64,000 nucleotides of DNA from Ricordea florida (taxonomy: Eukaryota > Cnidaria > Anthozoa > Corallimorpharia > Ricordeidae). The stretch covers positions 38,756,538-38,820,537 of the forward strand of contig OX453273.1 of the NCBI GenBank assembly GCA_949710005.1. Direction: 5' to 3'. Below, in pieces: positions 34,446 through 56,900 of the stretch (position 1 is the stretch's first letter; the number at the start of each line of letters is the position of its first letter). Under the pieces are notes generated by a model, which was not told where the DNA came from, made no database searches, and worked only from the letters and a program-made list of their open reading frames with translations. A program made the translations under genes and the position numbers.

Positions 34446-36789
34446 GGCTCCCTCTTTGTCAAGAAACATGTTTCACTGCATTGCCCCATTATCTGTACCC
34501 GAGTCTGGCGTTTCTTTTTGCCTAAAAATAAAATCGCTTTTTTTGTGTGATTCATCTGTGCTCCTCCTCGGTGCACACTATCACAGAAACAAACAGATGT
34601 TTCATTTGCAGATGATGGCAGAAATCTTCTCCCACTCTGATGTTAGCTGGCCTAAAACTTGTTTTACAAAGAACCGCTTAAGCGAGGTTTAGACCAAACT
34701 CAATAAAACTGTTGTCTAACTGAATTCAATTTGTGCTTCTCCAACTTAAGATTTTTACAGATCTCGTTTATAAGAACTCCAGAATTGATAGCCATTACCT
34801 GTACACTAGCAGTTAATTAGTTTCAACACAATAACTGCAACTGAATTAGTCAGTTTCGATCCTTTCCATGCAGTTTCTATTAAACCGCAGATTTACTTGA
34901 GGTTTGTGAAAATAATCAGACCAAACCTTTCGCAATTAGCATACTTCGTCAAGTTATGCTTGCTGTAGCGTTACTGTTTCGTCCTCGTAAAAAATAACCA
35001 AAAAAATTACGTGCGTTACTCTAAAGGATTCAGATACACAAGCCTCTTTAATTAACGAAGTCTCCAATTTGACCTTTTTACAGATGCTTGCGTTGCATAT
35101 TTCTTACCTTTCACATTCTGCTTGCGCTCGGCAGTGTTCTCTGGGCGGCTATTCAAAACCTTTACCTACGAAAACAACGTAATTAACTTCAAAAGCTTGT
35201 CGTTGAAAAGGCATTAAAAGAAGACCGAAAGCAGAAGAAAGTTAACCGAGCGAGGTAACCGCCTTTCTTTGCTTACCTCACTTTTTCCAGACATTTTCGT
35301 TGTCTCAGCAGACCAGTAAGAGTTCTGTGATGTTTGCTTGATCGATTGTTGATTCCACGACCTCAAACCAGCTTAAGTTTGCACATCGCTGCGATCTGAT
35401 TGGTTAGCAAGACTAGTGGCTTATCCCTCATTGGTCGAGCAAATGCGCTCGATTTCACGTGGTTGTCAGGTGACCTTTGATGTAGACAAACTATGACATG
35501 GCCGTTCCATCCGTCTCAGCAAGCGTTGCAAGCATTTTCCAAGAAAACACTCACAATAATAACGATATGACGTCGCTTGTGATTCTCTCGTGACTACAGC
35601 TAGATTTGACATGTTTTCAAACAATTCAGCATGAGGAACGGAAGAAGTTCCGTCGTAAAAATCATCGGATGTAAAATTTGGGCACTGAGTAGGTTTTCTT
35701 ATTCCATTTTGGCAGTGGGTGCTAATTACTGGGATTTGTTCGTTAGTTGTCGTTAATTGTGGAGAACAACTTAAATTTGCACTTTAAAAAGCTGAAAGAT
35801 TGGTGGATCGTGCCTAGCTGATTGCATATACCAGCGGAGTGAGTATAAGTAAAAAGATAAAATACTATCTTAAATTGCACTGATACTGATGATGCGACAA
35901 TGATGTCATAATTTCAATATCAGTCAAACACTGCTGAATTGTTATGATAGAATTTTATTTTTCAAAGTAATTAGGAAGTCGTTGTCATGACTAAAATAAA
36001 ACTTATAAAACACTCTTTGGCTGAGTCGCATATTTATTTCATCATTACAATAAACTAATTAGCTCGAAAGTCTCATTAGTTAACTTACTCTTACACCTGT
36101 CAATCAAAACCGTTTCTTTTAATAGCATGTAAAAGATAAATTCTGCATGGCATAAATCTTTTTGTATCTTTTCCAAGATCCGCAACAACTGTCTCATTTG
36201 GTTGGCAGATTATTAAAAAAGAAACGAATTATTTAATCTGCGCTCACATTATAAGATGTTGAAGACCATGTGTGTGCTGAGTTGTTTTCCGTGAAAAGTG
36301 AATGCAGCTTTTTCCCTGTAAAACAGCATAGGTATAAAGTAAAGATTAGTTAAGACAGTGAACAATTTGTATTTTAATTGCCTTAAGACTACCTTCATAT
36401 TTGGCTTTATTTTGTTTTTGATCATGAGCTGATATTGTATGACGCAAACAGGCAGAGGAGACAAGAAAGTAAAATACTCAGTTGGTTACAAGGAGGTAAG
36501 TTTGCGATTGTCTTACATGAATTACATATATGTTTTTGTTGTTGTTGTTGTTGTTGTTGCGGTCTTTAGAGGGGAAGCTATCTGTCTCGCAGCCAACTAT
36601 CTCGCTTATCGTGACGAAACCTCAGTCAACATCATCATCAACAATTCTTTTCAGAACTTCTTACACCCGGACGATCGCAAACTCCACAAAAATTTTTTCA
36701 TTCATCTTAAACTCGTAAAAAATCCATTGTTTATTAACCCAGGGTCACAAAATTAAAGCAAGGCAGTTCAGTTACAACTCCAGCTCATG
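34446..36789. other. Gene-poor stretch left of the 6-kb transposon
   Basis: No exon I can support. There is a partial MITE near 34935-34995, a GTT microsatellite at about 36535-36560, and scattered GC-richer patches near 35400-35480. Open frames here are short and unlike any family. Confidence 0.4.
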
Positions 36790-36817
36790 GCCAGAAATTT
36801 CGGACATTTGAGCCCGC
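36790..36817 (+). repeat. Left terminal inverted repeat (28 bp)
   Basis: It is identical to the reverse complement of 42836-42863. Key bases are GCCAGAAATTTCGG at the outer end and GAGCCCGC at the inner end. Confidence 0.8.
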
Positions 36818-36855
36818 GCATTAAGCAGCGGGTGACTCTATGCTAATGAAGCAAC

Positions 36856-37760
36856 ATGGCGTCTTCAAGAAAACTCCTTACGGTTGATTATAAACAACTA
36901 CATTCCTTTTCCTCTGTGGTTTTATATGACACAACAACTCGCTCGAAAGATAGAGGAAGATTTTATGATGTGGAGAGAATTATCACCCGGCGAAAATGTG
37001 GTTCGGTAAGTCTTGTAATGTTTCTTATTCGTCATGTATTATCTCTCGAGGCGACGGCTTGTACTTTCCGTAAGCTGAAGTTTTCTGAGTATTGAATTAT
37101 GTGTATTGCGATTCTAGGGTTATGAATACTTGTTGAAGTGGAGAGGATGGTCACTAGAAGCTTGCAGCTGGGAGCCAGCTGAAAATCTTACTCCGGATTT
37201 ACTAAGGTGGATTGAGAGATTAGCGATCTGCATTGTTATTTGTCCCGCCTTTTACAAACTATTTGCTTGAAAATGAAATTTTAAGAAAATGGAGTATCAC
37301 GGATTTAAGCAACTTTTACTGACTTTTCAGGTCTTTCTTGAGGCCAATTCAAATCAGTGATGAAAGGCTTATTGAAGGAAGTCGGCGATTTGCTGCTGGG
37401 GTGTTAACTGGGCTGAAAAGTTCCTCTCTTTCACCATTTTACATTGACATGAATCTCGATATTTGGCGCTTTATTTCTTATAACAAATGTACTCCTTCAG
37501 AACATCGAGGTCATTTTTTATGTTACAAAGATGACTTTACAAAGTTTAAGTACCTTTCTCAACACTGGTGGTACTTTTTGAACGAACATGGAGAGGGATT
37601 TGCTGTTGACTTCCCTATTAAAATAAAGCCAGTGTTGTCATGGTCCCCAGCTCATTATTTTAACAAAGATGGGCTACTTTGCAAGGCCCCTAGGTTCCCC
37701 CTAGAGAAGTTGTGCATTGAAATTGCAAAGAAGCCATGTAACTTAGAAAATGTGTTGTAG
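36856..37760 (+). CDS. Chromodomain protein carried by the transposon
   Basis: Three exons: 36856-37005, 37118-37206 and 37331-37760, GT-AG and in phase, 222 residues. A chromodomain spans about residues 36-80: RFYDVERIITRRKCGS, then GYEYLLKWRGWSLEACSWEP and AENLTP. The aromatic residues expected to form the methyl-lysine cage (Tyr in FYDVE, two Trp in KWRGW) are present. The C-terminal 140 residues (for example DIWRFISYNK, LSQHWWYFLNEHGEGFAVDF) resemble nothing I know. The gene starts just inside the left inverted repeat and points towards the transposase gene, so it probably belongs to the element. A role in steering insertion to methylated histones is a guess based on chromoviruses. Alternative: a host gene captured between two repeat copies. 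Confidence 0.8.
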
Positions 37761-37892
37761 AAGATTTGCTTTCTACAATATTATTTGGTAACTAAAACTT
37801 TTGAAGGAGTGATTGCAGAATATCTTGCAACCCCTGACAAACCAGTTTGCATGTGGTACAACTCTTTGTAGAATGAGGTATAAAACAATATA

Positions 37893-37972
37893 CACTTAAT
37901 GTATGGTCCTAAGGGAAACAGTTAGTTTTGTTTTCCCTCTAACTAGTTCCCCAAGGGACCATACATTAAGTG
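37893..37972. repeat. Hairpin repeat between the convergent genes
   Basis: The arms CACTTAATGTATGGTCC and GGGACCATACATTAAGTG enclose about 45 bp. It looks like a small MITE and lies in the probable overlapping 3' regions of the two transposon genes. Confidence 0.65.
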
Positions 37973-38221
37973 CTTTGTTATATATTTAGATTTTCTCTTC
38001 AACAATCACGGCAAAACAAACAACTGAGAGGTCAACAACTGCTGAATTGTATCCTGGTCAGGATACATTTGTATTTGATCAGGGGCACATTGCCAAGAAT
38101 CAACTAATCACAGTGAAAAGAAATTATTACAAAGTGTCTGCTTGAAACTATCAATTTCTTTAATGTCAAATCCGTAACTCCCTCACATCAGTGATTTCCT
38201 TTGTGTTCTATTTGTGACTTA

Positions 38222-41200
38222 TTAATCAGCTTGAGAGGCTAACTCTAAAGCATTTTCAAGTAGTTCTTGCAATCTTTTTACATTTCTAAGCCGCGTTCTA
38301 ATTCCCATCTCTGCAAGTTGAGCTTTAATATTTTCTGGAGTCATGTTAGCTACATCATACTCATTAGTACTATCACGATTGGCTGAACTGGATAAATCTT
38401 TAATGGCTGCTCTTTGACAGGCACGTTTTTCTTTTATGGTGGTTTCCCAGTACTCTGCATTCCTTTTCTTGTAGTTTCTTGGGGTTCGCTCACATTCGCT
38501 CAGTAGCTCAAGTCTTTTACTAACCAAAAGAACATCTTTTGCAGCATCCCACTTGTTAGACTTTTGAAGATGTATTCTTCTGCAATCATCATTATTTTTT
38601 TCCACCCCTGTTTAGAGAATTGATCTTTTATAAGTTTTTTAAACATATTAGTTTTAACATAAAATACATTTAAAACTATTATATAATAAACCATTGACAT
38701 TAATACTGTTATTGTTACAAGAGATGGTCTGAGTAGGCAGTAGAACATGGTGTTATTTTTAGAATGTTCTTTTATTGAACTCCAGTTAAATCAGAGCTTC
38801 TTAGCGACTAATGAAAAAAAAAACTCACTCTTTTCGTTGGAAAAGGACAATAAGATATCAAAAGTTTATTGAAAAACAGTTCAAAATTGCACAGTTTTGT
38901 ACATCATTAGGTAGTCTACATTAACTTGCCTTACCCTGCCCTGTAAATTTCTTGATCCCTTGAAGTTTTGCTAGAAATCTTGGCACATGAAACACCATTG
39001 CATGCATGTATGGAGTGACATTTGCCTTGGCATAACCAATGCTTATTCCTGCAAGAGATGTAAAAAGGGATACCCATGCCTTTGCCTGACAAGGATATAG
39101 GGAGGGAAATTAATCATGTCAGTAGCTTGTTATGAGTATACATTACAGCTTTTGTAATTAATGATTGTTTCCATAATAATTCCCCTTACCCATTTAAGTT
39201 TTTAGAATGTGCCAAGGTATAGTTACACTTGGGCAGTTTATTTACCTTTTGAAAGTAGTCTTCAGCATAATCATCAGTGGGATTTTGTTCATCAAACATC
39301 TTGTAGAGCTCATCAAAGTCCTGTTCAGAGTAACATTACATTGCAATAAACATTTTGTTCTTAAAAGAAAAACTTGTACACATACATCTGTATAATAGTG
39401 CAAAATGCTGTTACCTTCCAGATTTTTATCACAACATCTCTGGTTTCTGGTTTTAATACACCGTGTAACTTTGGTGGCAATTCTCTCAGAAGTATCTTCT
39501 TGTCAGAACCCATCAAACTTGTGAAATCAAAACAACCACTGCCCTTTCCATCTGCATTTTTCTTTTCCCATATATTAAATGACACACCACAGTTGTTAAA
39601 AGCAGCTTTGAGAGAGTCAGTATGTTGGCTTGTTTTCTGGCTAGGGGGCTTGTTAAAATTTTCCTTCTTATCCCAGGCCATGGCTTCTTCTACTAAGTTG
39701 TTAGTCAAAACATCTGTGTAAAATAACATTTTTTATACAACCTGTTAGTTATCTCTCTAACCTTTTAAGAGTATTTATTCCTTAATTTAGAAGACAAATG
39801 TTTTCTCTTTTAGGTCCCCAAGGAAAATACCAAGACAGTTCATTATTTAATTGCATCTTACACATACCAGTCACTCTCAGCATCAAATGTAGCTCATCAA
39901 GGACAACATTTTCTAAGGGAATTTCAAGCAAGGGCTTATGGACACAGGAGAACTTATGATCCTTCGCATGGTCCTTCATGGTTTGAAGAGTTCTTACAAG
40001 GGGTTCTTCCCAGTAATAATCTGTGGCTTTGGACATGTCATGCCTATAATGTTAAAAATAAATACTGGGATCAGATAACACAGTGAGGTTATTTTTTAAC
40101 TGAGCAATTCATGCAGGCATACTGTTAGAAGGTGTAAATTTTTACCTGTCTCTTGTGAATTGTACACCAAAGGCATGAATAATCAGAGGTGGCACTTTTC
40201 ATACCGAGTATGAGAAGAAGGAACTGCAAAACAAACAATGATTTTAATGACATTACAAACTCAACACTGCTGTATTTTGTTTTGTTATTATAGCTGCTGG
40301 GATTTTGAAATGGTCAATAGTTTTGTAGTTGTACAAACATTTAATGCAGTAAATAATTTACCTTATAGTCCCCACCCAGAAACATTTCAACTGGTATCTC
40401 TCTCCCATCAACTGTGACCTTCCCTTCCTTCACAATCTTGTTGACAGCATTAAACAGGTCAGCACATGAGGTCTTCAGAAGATCATAACTTTCATGACCC
40501 TTAATTACAGCAACTGTATGATTTCCTTATAAAAAATAAAATAAATAAATAAATAAATGAAACAAAAGTAAATTCACTGGGTTTAATTGTTATTCCCTAC
40601 ACAATGTTTTACCTTTTGATGACATTACATCATCATTCTCCACAACTGAGTAGGACATAATCACAAAACTTGTCAGCCTAGACATTCTTGCACCATCTCC
40701 ACTGATCTTTACTTTAAGTTTGGCATCTGATTCATTTTGGATTTTCTGCAGATGTTTTAAGAACACAGGCAAACAACAGTTGTATGTTAACCATCATCAT
40801 TATCATAATCATCATCATCATTATCATTATTTTTGTTGTTGCTATGACCTTGATTGTACCAGTTAAGGGACTGGCGTGGTTTACAGATCACTAATAATAC
40901 TGACCAGTTTTCGTATTGTGTTTTGAAGTTCCCTCTCAAAGTCAAGTTGAGCTCCTTCTGCTGTTCCGGGGGTTCTTGCTATGTGGATCAGCTCATTCAG
41001 GTGGTTCTTACTTTGTCTCACTAGGTAAGATCGAGGTAGACCATCCCCACTAGATGCTAAAGTGAGCTCATGGTATGCTGCTTCTCCTATGCAGAATTTG
41101 TCTGTTAGGTAAACAATTTCTTTAATTTTATCTTGGTCTTCTTTGCATAATTCCTCGAACGACTTTGTTCCTTGTCCTTGACCTTGGTAAGTGATGCTGT

Positions 41201-42062
41201 GAGTCTTACCACTGTCGTCCTGGCATTCCATGAATGTTATCTTAAGACCAAAAGTCTCTGCGAACCATAAAGCTCTTTCCTGCTTAACCTTTTCTAAATC
41301 AGCGTACAGTTCCTCCACTCTCTCTTCTGCTTCACTTTGTAATTCACGGGCCTCATGTAAGTCTTTCCAAAGCTGATCTATTATCCCTTGAAGACCTTGA
41401 GTTTCAAATTGCAAATATTCATTTTTCTCTTGCAATATTTTGCTTTGTTCTATTTGGTCTTTTAATTCCTTCTCAGCCTCAACAATATTTCGCACTTCCC
41501 CCTTACGTATGGCTATCTTTCTGACCTTGTAAGTCTCATGTAAGTCTTTCCAAAGCTGATCTATTATCCCTTGAAGACCTTGAGTTTCAAATTGCAAATA
41601 TTCATTTTTCTCTTGCAATATTTTGCTTTGTTCTATTTGGTCTTTTAATTCCTTCTCAGCCTCAACAATATTTCGCACTTCCCCCTTACGTATGGCTATC
41701 TTTCTGACCTTGTTTCCAAATGTCACATAGTGTCTACCGTTCTTTGCGACAAACTGGCTCTTAACGGTAGACGCAAGCCTCCTGAAATGATTTTCGATTC
41801 TTTCGCAGTCTCTTCTCAGTAAAATCCCAAACTTTTCGCCGATCAGTGCATTAGCGATATCGATAAACTTCAAGTCTGGAAAAACGTTCTGCTCCTTAAA
41901 CTCGTACCAGCTTCTTAGACATTTATTGGTTACGTGGATTGTTAGAAGAATCTCATCACTGTTGATACCCTGTTTTGCTATATATTGTAGACTATGATTT
42001 GAATCAATTCCGACGCAGTTGAAATACCTCTCGCGATCGTAAGAGCTAAGTACACCAGACAT
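38222..42062 (-). CDS. Nine-exon DDE-transposase-like protein with RAG1-like zinc motif
   Basis: Exons from 5': 40905-42062, 40613-40745, 40362-40525, 40148-40225 (approximate), 39868-40043, 39415-39713, 39246-39320, 38935-39085, 38222-38607; about 873 codons. The first exon encodes a DNA-binding-like N-terminus and a coiled coil with a duplicated 61-residue unit. Catalytic-domain motifs in order: [12 protein letters not shown] (first Asp), [25 protein letters not shown] (C-x2-C), [14 protein letters not shown] (second Asp), [15 protein letters not shown] (H-x4-H-V-P), [14 protein letters not shown] (Glu). The same order of Asp, C-x2-C, Asp, H-x4-H-V-P and Glu occurs in RAG1/Transib, though related insertion-domain transposases share parts of it. 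The tail has a SAP-like helix pair ([15 protein letters not shown]). Exon 4 ends AAGAGACAG and joins exon 5 out of frame; loss of one GA unit would explain it, so this copy may be dead. Confidence 0.75.
41352..41713 (-). repeat. Exact tandem duplication of a 183-bp coding unit
   Basis: The segment encoding [20 protein letters not shown] to QLWKDLHE occurs twice with period 183 bp (61 codons). I see no base difference over about 179 bp. It keeps the frame and lengthens the coiled coil. Identity at every silent position means a very recent event or an assembly artefact. Confidence 0.9.
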
Positions 42063-42835
42063 TGCGAATTTGTGGCTACTAAAGAAACTGTTTTAAACGC
42101 CAGCAAAAATGTGCAAGAAACTGTAAACATGGAATTTAATTCTCGCGCGTAATTCCCGCGGAATGCTCCTGCGCGGAGGCGTGCGACTGCTTTAGAGAAC
42201 TATCGCAGGTTTAACTTTAAACTGCTGTCTTAGAAAACTGCAGGCTCGAAAAGTCTGGGTTTTGCTGAAAATGTTGATACCAAATATGCAGGGTGTTCGT
42301 GCGAGAACACGGCGCAAAGAGGGAGAACTCGTTGCTTTCTTTATCATGGAGCGGAACTGGAATTGCGTGACATGTCGACTTTTCTTCCCGGGACTTATTT
42401 CATTGTGTACGGTTTTTAACAGCCGAAAGGAAAGGTAAATTTACAAGCCGAAGGTCAGACTTCTTATTTTCCAAATAGGGTTTTATCTTTACTTTATGAT
42501 TCGATTTTGGCAAATTATGAAGCGTCATTTGCTTTTTTGCTATTTCCTGTCAAATATGTCATCTTCGGTTCTTTTGTCAGTGATTTGTAAGGCCTTGACT
42601 GGATCTGAAGTTGCAAATTGACATCGTTCCGAGGGAAAGGTATGGAATTGGTTTTCGTATAATTTTTTTTCACTTAAATGGAGCTGAAATGTCGTTGAAT
42701 AATGTTCGATTTTGGCAAACTGAAAAACCACAGTAATTGGTTTTGTATTTTCCGTAATTCCATCGCTTCTCATATAAACCTTTGTAATTTTCGTACGCCA
42801 TTTTTAAAACGATTGGGAAAAGCCACTGCTGTCAT

Positions 42836-42863
42836 GCGGGCTCAAATGTCCGAAATTTCTGGC
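42836..42863 (-). repeat. Right terminal inverted repeat (28 bp)
   Basis: It is the exact reverse complement of 36790-36817. The 770 bp between it and the transposase ATG contain no gene and presumably the promoter. Confidence 0.8.
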
Positions 42864-43108
42864 TAAGTAACTTGCGGCAAGTAAACTATGCTTGGTGATT
42901 ACCGTCATAATTAAATTTTTGATTTCGTAACGTGTTATTGCATTTTGTATTACAATGAGTTTTTTATCCGTTTGAATTTTATGTTGGTTTTATCAATTTT
43001 ATGACAGAATTCAGAAATTTTCGTCCAGTCAAATTTTCGGATAACCCCAAATTGTCAACCTAATTAGGGGTGCACGGGACTGTCTTATTGGAAGTCACCT
43101 TAGTAAAC

Positions 43109-53949: not shown

Positions 53950-56900
53950 TTAGTGATGGACTTTTCCCTGCCCTGTACCAGTCCAGAGTTCTCGTAGCTC
54001 CACAGCACACCTAAGATCTCTCAATGCTGCCTTGGCCAAGTCAGCACAATCTGGAAACCTGTCCTGAGCCTTTCTTATAAGACTCTCACCTCCTGCATCC
54101 AGTATGATTTCACGATGAGCTGGATTCCTTGAAACTAGATTACGCAGTGCCAAGCATCCTTGTTTCTAGAATGATATAACAGAGAGAAACATTTATTGCA
54201 TACATAAAATTGGTAAGCTGTGATGTGTGACAGTGCAATACCTTTCATTAAGTCCAATTTAAAAACTGCACTACCAACTTACTCCCCCTTGAGTAAACTC
54301 GAAAGCTATTTAGATTACCTCACAGATAAACACCATATTCATGCATGCTAACACAAATACAGAGCAATAGAGCTATTGTCCTTGAGGATAACATAGCAAA
54401 AATTCAAATCTTTCTCATCATTGTCACAGCATACATTATGGCCATCCTTTGGAAAGCTACTGCACAGTATTGCGCTGTACAGTGGTACTGTTATTTTTAC
54501 TTCACAGTATGGTTCTAACTTTTTAATCTGTGAATCACACCATATAGTGTGATCATTCTTTGGAAATCTACCGACCAGAACTGTACTGTGGTATTGTTGG
54601 TCTTATTACGCAGTCTGGTTTTAACTTTTTCACCAGTGGATGAAGATAGGCCATGTGACAATTCTTTAGAAAGATGCAAATGAATATATGAAAGACCATA
54701 TATTTGAACTGCGGATTAATATGTAATGACATTAGTTGATCATTGCAGTTATGCACACAACTTAAGCAGCTGTGAAACTAATGTCATTACATATTAATCC
54801 GCAGTTCAAATATATGGTCTTTCATATATTCATTTGCATCATTCTTCTTCATCTACGGGTATATTACGAACTTACGATATGATCAGCTCACAGTTGGCTT
54901 GATAGCTCAGTTGGTAGAGCACTGCTCCGGTATCGCAGAGGTCATGGGTTCGAATGCACACAACTTAAGCAGCTGTGAAACTAAAGCCTGAAAAACAAAA
55001 AAAAACTCAGACCTGAACGGGATTCGAACCCATGACCTCTGCAATACCGGAGCAGTGCTCTACCAACTGAACTATCAACGGGTATATTACGAACTCACAA
55101 TATGATCAGCTCACATGTTGGTTTGATAGCTCAGTTGGTAGAGCACTGCTCCGGTATCGCAGAAGTCATGGGTTCGAATCCCGTTCAGGTCTGAGTTTTT
55201 TTCAGGCTTTAGTTTCACAGCTGCTTAAGTTGTGTGCATAACTGCGATGATCAACTAATGTCATTTAGCAATTAATGAATGAGGCTGAGTAGGATATGAA
55301 GAATTAAGCGGATCGAGGAAGGTGTTATCCACCGAGGCCATAGGCCGAGGTGGATAACACCCTTTCGAGATCCGCTTAATTCTTCATATCCTACGAAAGC
55401 CGAATTCATTAATTGCTTTATTATTTATCAAAATATTTTCAAACACTTAAAGGAGAAAATGAGCTTCATTTTCACAAATTTCACACCCACCAGCAATATA
55501 ACAAAACAACAAAATAACACAAGCTCGTCCCCAGGTCTTCTCGGTTAACGGTGCATTAACCTGCGAAAACGCTGCATTTTTGACGTCATTTCCTCGTTTA
55601 AGTCAAAATTCTTCCAAATTTGGTCATCAGTAACTGGTTATGGTGAATTAAACGTGTGCTTTTAGCCAATCAGAATCGGGGAAATATTTTGAATGAATAA
55701 TAATACATATTAATCTGCAGTTCAAATATATGGTCTTTCATATATTCATTTGCATCATTCTTCTTCATCTACGGGTATATTACGAACTCACAATATGATC
55801 AGCTCCCAGTTGGCTTGATAGCTCAGTTGGTAGAGCACTGCTCCGGTATCGCAGAGGTCATGGGTTAGAATCCCGTTCAGGTCTGAGTTTTTTTTTTGTT
55901 TTTCAGGCTTTAGTTTCACAGCTGCTTAAGTTGTGTGCATAACTGCGATGATCAACTAATGTCATTACATATTAATCTGCAGTTCAAATATATGGTCTTT
56001 CATATATTCATTTGCATCATTCTTCTTCATCTACGGGTATATTACGAACTCACAATATGATCAGCTCCCAGTTGGCTTGATAGCTCAGTTGGTAGAGCAC
56101 TGCTCCCGTATCGCAGAGGTCATGGGTTAGAATCCCGTTCAGGTCTGAGTTTTTTTTTGTTTTTCAGGCTTTAGTTTCACAGCTGCTTAAGTTGTGTGCA
56201 TAACTGCGATGATCAACTAATGTCATTACATTCTTTGGAAAGCTACTTAATGGTACTGTACTGTATTTTACTAATAGATATTGATTTAACAAACTTTTTC
56301 AATAACGTCATTAATGTAATATATTCCAAATGTTGTTATTGTCAGTAATTTGGTATTAATGAGCGTAATAGTTATATGTAATTTAAATTACGTTCTATCT
56401 ACACAACTCGCCTCGACTAGCCTATGCTATTTGCAAGTTGTGTATGTATGTAATGACAGTGATATAGTTTAATAAAATTGATGTTGTAAGTTGCAGATCC
56501 AATGTGAGGGTTTTTCGGAATCAAATTTAACAATATATAAATTCAAACCGAGAGCTTATCCAACCCAGTTACTTCTACCTTGAATCCTCTCACGGTCATT
56601 GTCTGGCCCATCATACAATGCTCTTCCCCCCATCAACAGACTGCTTAGACTCAAACCACACACCTCTCTCATTGTGTTTGCCACTCATGCATGAAGTATA
56701 GAAACAACATTTGCACCAAAAAAGAACCTGCTGTGATTTCCAGTTGTCAAACCCAAGTGGAAGAGCTTGGTACATCATACATTTACCAGAACCTGTAGAT
56801 AAGCTCACAAACTTTTCTTCACGTTCAACTTTGACAATTTTTCAAACTGCTAGCTTTTGGGAAGCACTGGTCAGCTCAGGGATATTAAATGTTGCAGATG

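Follow-up and report, generated by a model that had tools for sequence, protein, structure and literature searches.

A DNA transposon family of Ricordea florida that combines a transposase remotely similar to RAG1 with a separate, convergent chromodomain gene

RAG1-RAG2 is one well-known example of a transposase-derived enzyme with a histone reader, and the reason for that reader is an old question; RAG2 serves as a cleavage cofactor besides reading histone marks, and the heptamer of the recombination signal sequence (RSS) is CACWRTG. EnSpm/CACTA elements have CACTA/CACTG-like ends, Chapaev and Chapaev3 elements produce target duplications of 4 or 3 bp, and in chromoviral integrases and Polintons a chromodomain is fused to the integrase. 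Here we describe an element in a stretch of 64,000 nucleotides from Ricordea florida (contig OX453273.1, positions 38,756,538 to 38,820,537; the window) in which a transposase gene and a gene for a chromodomain protein, termed the partner, face each other between inverted repeats. RAG and Transib elements duplicate 5 bp of target, and one RAGL pair has been reported in each of two corals (excerpts of PMC7204232). The wider CMCT group (CACTA-Mirage-Chapaev-Transib-RAG1) includes EnSpm/CACTA, Mirage, Chapaev, Transib, Plavaka, ESTA and Lanisha and is marked by C(2)C and H(3-4)H between the second D and the E, by 5'-CA..TG-3' termini and by target duplications of 2-5 bp; the relation of ESTA was also recognised via RAG1 profiles (excerpts of PMC12730594).

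The perfect 28-bp inverted repeats described in an earlier note on this DNA were located at 36790-36817 and 42836-42863, with a complementarity of 100% and a spacing of 6,018 nt. Searching the window for the arm with up to 3 mismatches gave 2 matches, just the two arms, and 0 matches in 100 shuffles, indicating that the repeats are not due to chance. In the whole genome (537.8 Mb, 48 contigs), 190 matches (107 + 83) to the 28-mer were found at the same threshold and none to the reversed 28-mer used as a control. At 20 loci cut around the best 28-mer matches, the four bases before the repeat are CATG, except that the subfamily of the window has CATA at its right end. Comparison of copies adds 4 bp to each end of the window element: the left end starts at 36786 with CATG, and the right end closes at 42867 with a decayed CATA/CATG, which reads CTTA in the window copy and CATA in copies L001, L004, L006 and L007. 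The true termini of the family are CATGGCCAGAAAT, and the CATG-extended end has 53 exact matches genome-wide. Families with divergent proteins have CATG-GCCAGAAATC-type ends in common: CATGGCCAGAAATCCGTGACAG in the L057 family, CATGGCCAGAAATCGAGGACA in L059, CATTACCAG/CATTGCCAG in L058, and CATGGGGAGAAATCC in 7 of the 8 ends read in L056 and L060-L065, the exception being the left end of L056 with AACTGGGG. Short copies carrying these ends are numerous; those at L012-L020 span about 0.93 kb. A separate observation concerns C15:16805198-17521405, where ten CATGGCCAGAAATCGCGG ends, all on the plus strand, extend over 0.7 Mb in what looks like a tandemly multiplied segment.

As the earlier note had proposed, one multi-exon gene points inwards from each side: a chromodomain gene of 3 exons and 222 amino acids on the plus strand and a transposase gene of nine exons on the minus strand (42062 to 38225, with GT/AG borders). 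The C-terminal domain of the partner has 88 matches in the genome. Among 30 loci cut around the best of these matches (L021 is the window's own, and L028 and L047 are one place), transposase sequence was detected within about 1.5 kb in 26 and was convergent in 25 of the 26, the exception being the short fragment L027. Genome-wide, the best 88 of 478 transposase candidates were scored and linkage counts are lower bounds; at least 98 transposase matches in at least 81 clusters were obtained, and at least 50 of the 81 clusters have a partner match within 6 kb, in convergent orientation in 50 of 50 cases. Seen from the partner side, 36 of 86 clusters are without a scored transposase match within 6 kb; L052 and L054 hold transposase exons when read directly. 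These counts make it evident that the ends and the two genes occur repeatedly as a set, as a genome search suggested in the earlier note was expected to reveal, and the counts contradict the possibility that the two are host genes found unlinked elsewhere. The recurrence bears out an intron-containing, two-gene DNA transposon.

Empty sites, which the earlier note had recommended looking for, were found for three related insertions and show movement of the whole unit. The site of the L057 insertion is uninterrupted in all 40 places scored (the best 40 of 2,932 candidates), and three of these empty sites, read directly, have no CATG and one T fewer than the joined flanks, within a T run. For L082/L083, the eight best of 40 places give an empty site of 219 bases, compared with 220 for the joined flanks, corresponding to a 1-bp duplication; for L094/L095 the join is exact (0 bp), an assessment made on relatives with about 83-90% identity to the flanks. 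Because CATG is missing from the empty sites of all three insertions, it is part of the element, and the idea of terminal CATG as a duplicated target site was discarded. The junction set consisted of 35 insertions with both flanks read; L053, L054, L056, L078/L079, L109/L110 and L113/L114, each with one end off the pattern or place, were excluded. In 17 of the 35, the base just before the element is identical to the base just after it (9.1 expected; nominal P 0.003 for this one among six tested lengths), 2-bp and 3-bp matches occurred in 5 (expected 3.6) and 2 (expected 1.1), and duplications of 4, 5 or 8 bp in none. Empty-site lengths and the 35 junctions thus give a target duplication of 0-1 bp, so that the fixed-length duplication anticipated in the earlier note was not borne out, and target duplications of AT, 4 bp or 5 bp are ruled out by the junctions. 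Apart from A+T richness, no clear insertion-site motif was detected in the flanks of the 35 insertions. The L057 insertion, and probably also the L094 insertion, lies in a high-copy element (L066-L077) with a coding stretch that looks integrase-like by eye.

The transposases of the family share the motifs SGDG, GGD(19)CxxC, HxxxxH and GQGVEKNN. SGDG, GGD, CxxC, HxxxxH and the E are collinear with RAG1, and alignments place the second-D region, CxxC, HxxxxH and the E motif on their RAG1 counterparts; the 19 residues from the second D to CxxC equal the spacing in RAG1. The order D...D...E with C(2)C and H(3-4)H between the second D and the E, characteristic of CMCT enzymes, is present. When the PDB was searched to E 10 with a single sequence, two sequences were returned, the better one being amphioxus RAG1L (E 0.01) and the second having E 1.3. 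With a profile of 12 relatives, RAG1 came first (E 0.0039) and RAG1/RAG1L accounted for 4 of the 9 sequences listed to E 10; after addition of one sequence from clade B (see below), 12 of the 16 sequences listed to E 1 were RAG1/RAG1L, the best with E 0.00029. Aligning the family with the genome's own RAG1L by hhalign gave a score of 53.9 (E 9.6e-6, probability 82.6%, 251 columns), and 22 controls (2 reversed and 20 column-shuffled) scored at most 26.4. Three long relatives have a C-terminal SAP-like segment, below the cut-off. The RING/zinc region of the RAG1 N-terminus had no Pfam match in the N-terminal part of the window protein, nor in L056, L057 or L058 read from the first Met, the remaining relatives being partial. 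The motifs and RAG1 profile matches point to a transposase of RAG1/CMCT type with remote similarity to RAG1; the assignment of the earlier note, a DDE-like transposase, stands as to transposase and gives way to this more specific type.

Some further observations were made during these searches. A weak match to DUF1280 (E 0.011) occurred in 1 of 6 transposase relatives. At locus L098 (C15:3041933), a RAG1L gene of 969 codons, whose product looks RING-like at the N-terminus by eye, is convergent with a RAG2L that by eye looks kelch-PHD-like; L099 (C5:18269945) scores like L098, and L100 is a decayed RAGL locus. Viral contigs yielded 24 pattern matches, none of which was confirmed as a relative.

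The features of the window copy are collected in Table 1. A sister copy on a different contig, L051, is 99.1% identical to the window copy over 3.9 kb. Relative to L051, a 2-bp deletion at 40149/40150 shifts the frame of exon 4, and with the splice sites given the product stops after residue 512, past the second acidic residue and CxxC and ahead of HxxxxH and the E; in L051, exons 2-9 are open across 487 codons. Because the deletion truncates the transposase, the window copy is probably dead, most probably a young copy that was recently inactivated, and the deletion itself may be an assembly error. The element had been read as likely autonomous in the earlier note; the window copy, with its frameshift, looks non-autonomous. 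At L022/L051 (C1:37996619), similarity to the window stops within partner exon 3, so that neither the left end nor the first exons of the partner were located; the open frame around partner exon 3 is reported to span 3,462 codons. Elsewhere in the window, direct and inverted repeats cluster at positions 54668-56265 together with a motif resembling a tRNA promoter (TAGCTCAGTTGGTAGAGC) and may form an array of short interspersed elements.

Table 1. Coordinates of the element and its genes in the window
Feature	Position	Strand	Basis
Whole element, CATG to decayed CATG (6,082 bp)	36786..42867	.	comparison of copies; empty sites at related insertions
Left terminal inverted repeat, CATG + 28 bp	36786..36817	+	arm pairing, copy comparison
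Partner exon 1	36856..37005	+	gene model
Chromodomain, mainly residues 37-82, split by intron 1	36964..37206	+	Pfam PF00385, E 1e-14
Partner exon 2	37118..37206	+	gene model
Partner exon 3, C-terminal domain	37331..37760	+	gene model; domain matched 88 times in genome
Transposase exon 9, catalytic E at 38600-38602; C-terminus SAP-like in relatives	38225..38607	-	gene model, relatives
Transposase exon 8, HxxxxH	38935..39085	-	gene model
Transposase exon 7	39246..39320	-	gene model
Transposase exon 6	39415..39713	-	gene model
Transposase exon 5	39868..40043	-	gene model
Transposase exon 4, CxxC at 40164-40175, 2-bp deletion at 40149/40150	40146..40223	-	sister copy, gene model
Transposase exon 3, GGD with second acidic residue at 40368-40370	40362..40525	-	sister copy, gene model
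Transposase exon 2, SGDG with first acidic residue at 40695-40697	40613..40745	-	sister copy, gene model
Transposase exon 1, N-terminal part, coiled-coil-like by eye	40905..42062	-	sister-copy comparison, gene model
183-bp in-frame tandem duplication within exon 1	41352..41713	-	repeat search; absent from sister copy L051
Right terminal inverted repeat, 28 bp + decayed CATA	42836..42867	-	arm pairing, copy comparison

The window chromodomain finds chromobox protein 1 as its best match in the PDB (E 2e-9), and at the cage positions, which we take to be those of HP1/Polycomb, it displays by eye the aromatic residues Y/W/W. A chromodomain was recovered from 22 of 24 sequences tried (24 sequences represent 22 places) by a script that joins exons at GT/AG and whose splice choice, favouring resemblance to the window chromodomain, is biased towards it; the exceptions are L030, without a model, and L050, with a poor one. 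All 8 family representatives that were typed matched Pfam Chromo (E 1e-9 to 5e-16). Across the family, inspection by eye gives Y or F at cage position 1 in almost every sequence, with C in L049, W at position 2, and Y or W at position 3. With a Pfam Chromo match and an aromatic cage seen by eye, the partner qualifies as a chromodomain protein. Its C-terminal domain has no match in Pfam, and four weak PDB matches (three designed helical proteins and one Cas9 fragment) were taken as chance.

Eleven transposase clusters that lack a linked match to this partner group together at 32-35% identity and were named clade B. At one of them, L123, an open reading frame lies convergent beside the transposase, and its C-terminal part aligns to the profile of the partner C-domain with an hhalign score of 29.8 (E 0.0005, probability just 31.5%), the controls (reversed sequence, 60 shuffles and 20 other open reading frames) reaching at most 21.6; the same frame had no Pfam or PDB match. 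A genome search with the clade-B partner gave 47 matches and, when tables were compared by eye, a convergent one at 10 of the 11 clusters, the one without being C8:8290458. A fuller clade-B partner, L124, has the N-terminus LYEVEVVEVD...VKIHYKGFGVETDEW, which by eye is perhaps chromo-barrel- or Tudor-like, on the same partner C-domain. Nothing passes when this putative reader is searched against Pfam (ARID4A chromo barrel E 0.24, MBT E 0.16, SAWADEE E 0.18), and colicin matches of the clade-B partner (E 0.045-0.19), largely within the C-domain, were taken as chance. At the clade-B loci L123, L124 and L126 (C16:12515789, C8:22557884), the transposase seems by eye to end zinc-knuckle-like, as does the RAG1L of L098.

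Between families, the ratio of nonsynonymous to synonymous substitution rates (dN/dS) of the transposase is 0.13 for L056/L057, 0.09 for L035/L036 and 0.13 for L049/L050, at dS 1.0-2.3, and that of the partner C-domain is 0.09 for L035/L036, at a dS of 2.5, which is close to saturation. For saturated comparisons, the ratio of the corresponding proportions of differences (pN/pS) is 0.19-0.41 in six other partner pairs and 0.48 in the transposase pair L057/L058. Within families, dN/dS is 0.5-1.2 in three comparisons with few changes, and a fourth comparison showed no differences. These values indicate purifying selection on both genes, and the pattern is that predicted for genes selected during transposition. 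The L057 family has 11 equal-scoring partner matches and at least 9 transposase matches in stop-free open frames of 895 codons, and because of these equal-scoring copies and open frames its activity looks recent.

We consider it likely that the window element belongs to a cut-and-paste family and was inactivated recently, and that in this family a RAG1/CMCT-type transposase moves together with a chromodomain partner that would tether the complex to marked chromatin. The transposase, with its DDE core and CxxC...HxxxxH zinc insert, would recognise and pair the CATGGCCAGAAAT ends, excise the element by cutting at the CATG ends, and join the ends to the target by an almost blunt attack with nearly no stagger, leaving 0-1 bp duplicated; this half of the proposal follows from the homology and the junctions. 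The partner half derives from domain content and linkage, from which we infer that the partner contacts the transposase, binds histones and has a role in target choice: its C-domain most likely holds the transposase, and its chromodomain should bind methylated histone tails and so would tether the transposition complex to marked chromatin, comparable to the PHD finger of RAG2 for RAG1.

Several results weigh against this reading. Four of the 30 partner loci (L030, L031, L032, L046) have no transposase nearby, and 31 of the 81 transposase clusters are without a partner match within 6 kb; 11 of these are clade B and the remaining 20 are mostly partial or stop-containing, yet C15:5226756, likewise lacking a partner match, has a frame open over 884 codons. 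Pfam RAG1 (PF12940) matched 1 of 6 relatives, L036 (E 0.0011, 17.6 bits vs a cut-off of 25), and had no match in the window protein or clade B, and a genome-wide search with it at E 0.1 returned the RAGL genes (three loci, together with two weak matches, L101 and L102) and missed the present family. The window copy is broken and by itself uninformative on activity.

A tentative alternative, to which we give somewhat less than even chances, is that the partner acts as a cofactor or regulator (a stabiliser, an end-binding protein or a defence against host silencing) and that its chromodomain has no role in site choice. The RAG analogy would allow this, RAG2 being a cleavage cofactor as well as a reader, and the retention of the C-domain in clade B with a different N-terminus and the absence of a clear motif beyond A+T richness around the 35 insertions are consistent with it; however, the reader is retained in 22 of 24 sequences with cage-like aromatics in nearly all, suggesting that reading matters. 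It is improbable that we are dealing with an ordinary member of Transib, RAGL or Chapaev whose features have decayed. The order of catalytic motifs is the same, the termini are CA...TG, and the convergent two-gene layout is that of RAGL (excerpts of PMC7204232), but 3-, 4- and 5-bp duplications are not above chance in the 35 insertions, the ends are not RSS-like, the partner is not kelch-PHD, and separate RAG1L and kelch-PHD RAG2L pairs (by eye) exist in the same genome, to which similarity is remote. That the repeats and the neighbouring genes are unrelated, with two host genes lying by accident between repeat copies, has next to no probability: the short copies of about 0.93 kb have no room for both genes, as that explanation would allow, whereas the two genes recur in convergent orientation inside ends of this type across families with 28-70% identity of the partner protein, and empty sites were found. 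The 190 vs 0 end matches and the linkage counts rule out a host-gene or chance explanation.

An even chance may be given to the broader proposal of a second RAG-like system, in which a RAG1-type lineage independently joined a convergent partner with an exchangeable Royal-family reader (a chromodomain in clade A, a chromo-barrel/Tudor-like domain in clade B) on a common transposase-holding domain, with a 0-1 bp duplication. If this is true, coupling a RAG1-type enzyme to a chromatin reader from a gene of its own would be a solution reached more than once, rather than an accident confined to RAG. A separate family that is organised in the same way but has another reader, and of which one genome holds many copies that look intact, offers a natural comparison for RAG1-RAG2 and a testable system for reader-guided insertion. 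Near-absent target duplication is unusual for a DDE enzyme of RAG1/CMCT type and bears on the evolution of strand-transfer spacing.

The pairing of a RAG1-type transposase with a separate chromodomain gene was not found in searches of the open-licence PMC literature, although such elements may be recorded in Repbase with no accompanying paper; the excerpts of PMC12730594, a paper in which a word starting with 'chromo' occurs once, describe no chromodomain partner in CMCT elements. Coral CMITEs, described as related to piggyBac-like elements in excerpts of PMC2872659, were set aside as not the present family. PIF/Harbinger and NuwaI (PHIS; excerpts of PMC4482050) are likewise two-gene DNA transposons with a transposase and an accessory protein, but the latter is Myb/SANT, the transposase is another one and duplications are 3 bp; Spy of the same group shares the lack of target duplication but inserts within AAATTT, a motif absent from the 35 insertions, and has another transposase (PHIS; excerpts of PMC4482050). 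With CMCT elements the family shares the C(2)C/H(3-4)H motifs and, in its CATGG...CCATG ends, the CA..TG termini, and ESTA is likewise tied by RAG1 profiles, whereas the duplication is 0-1 bp here and 2-5 bp there (excerpts of PMC12730594). The ends are not of the CACTA/CACTG type of EnSpm/CACTA, and the 4- or 3-bp duplications of Chapaev/Chapaev3 are not seen in the 35 insertions. Lanisha, with which the present family may overlap, is reportedly a superfamily proposed in a 2020 Repbase report. Chromoviral integrases and Polintons also couple a chromodomain to a DDE enzyme, fused there and encoded by a separate gene here. With RAGL and RAG1-RAG2 (ProtoRAG, TransibSU), the family shares a RAG1-type DDE core with CxxC and HxxxxH and a convergent second gene that carries a histone reader, PHD in RAG2L (excerpts of PMC7204232) and a chromodomain here. 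It differs from them in its partner, a chromodomain on an unrelated C-domain with no kelch, PHD or RING match, in its ends, CATGGCCAG or in general CATGGCCAGAAAT and variants and not CACWRTG-like, and in the 5-bp duplication of Transib/RAGL, found in 0 of 35 insertions here.

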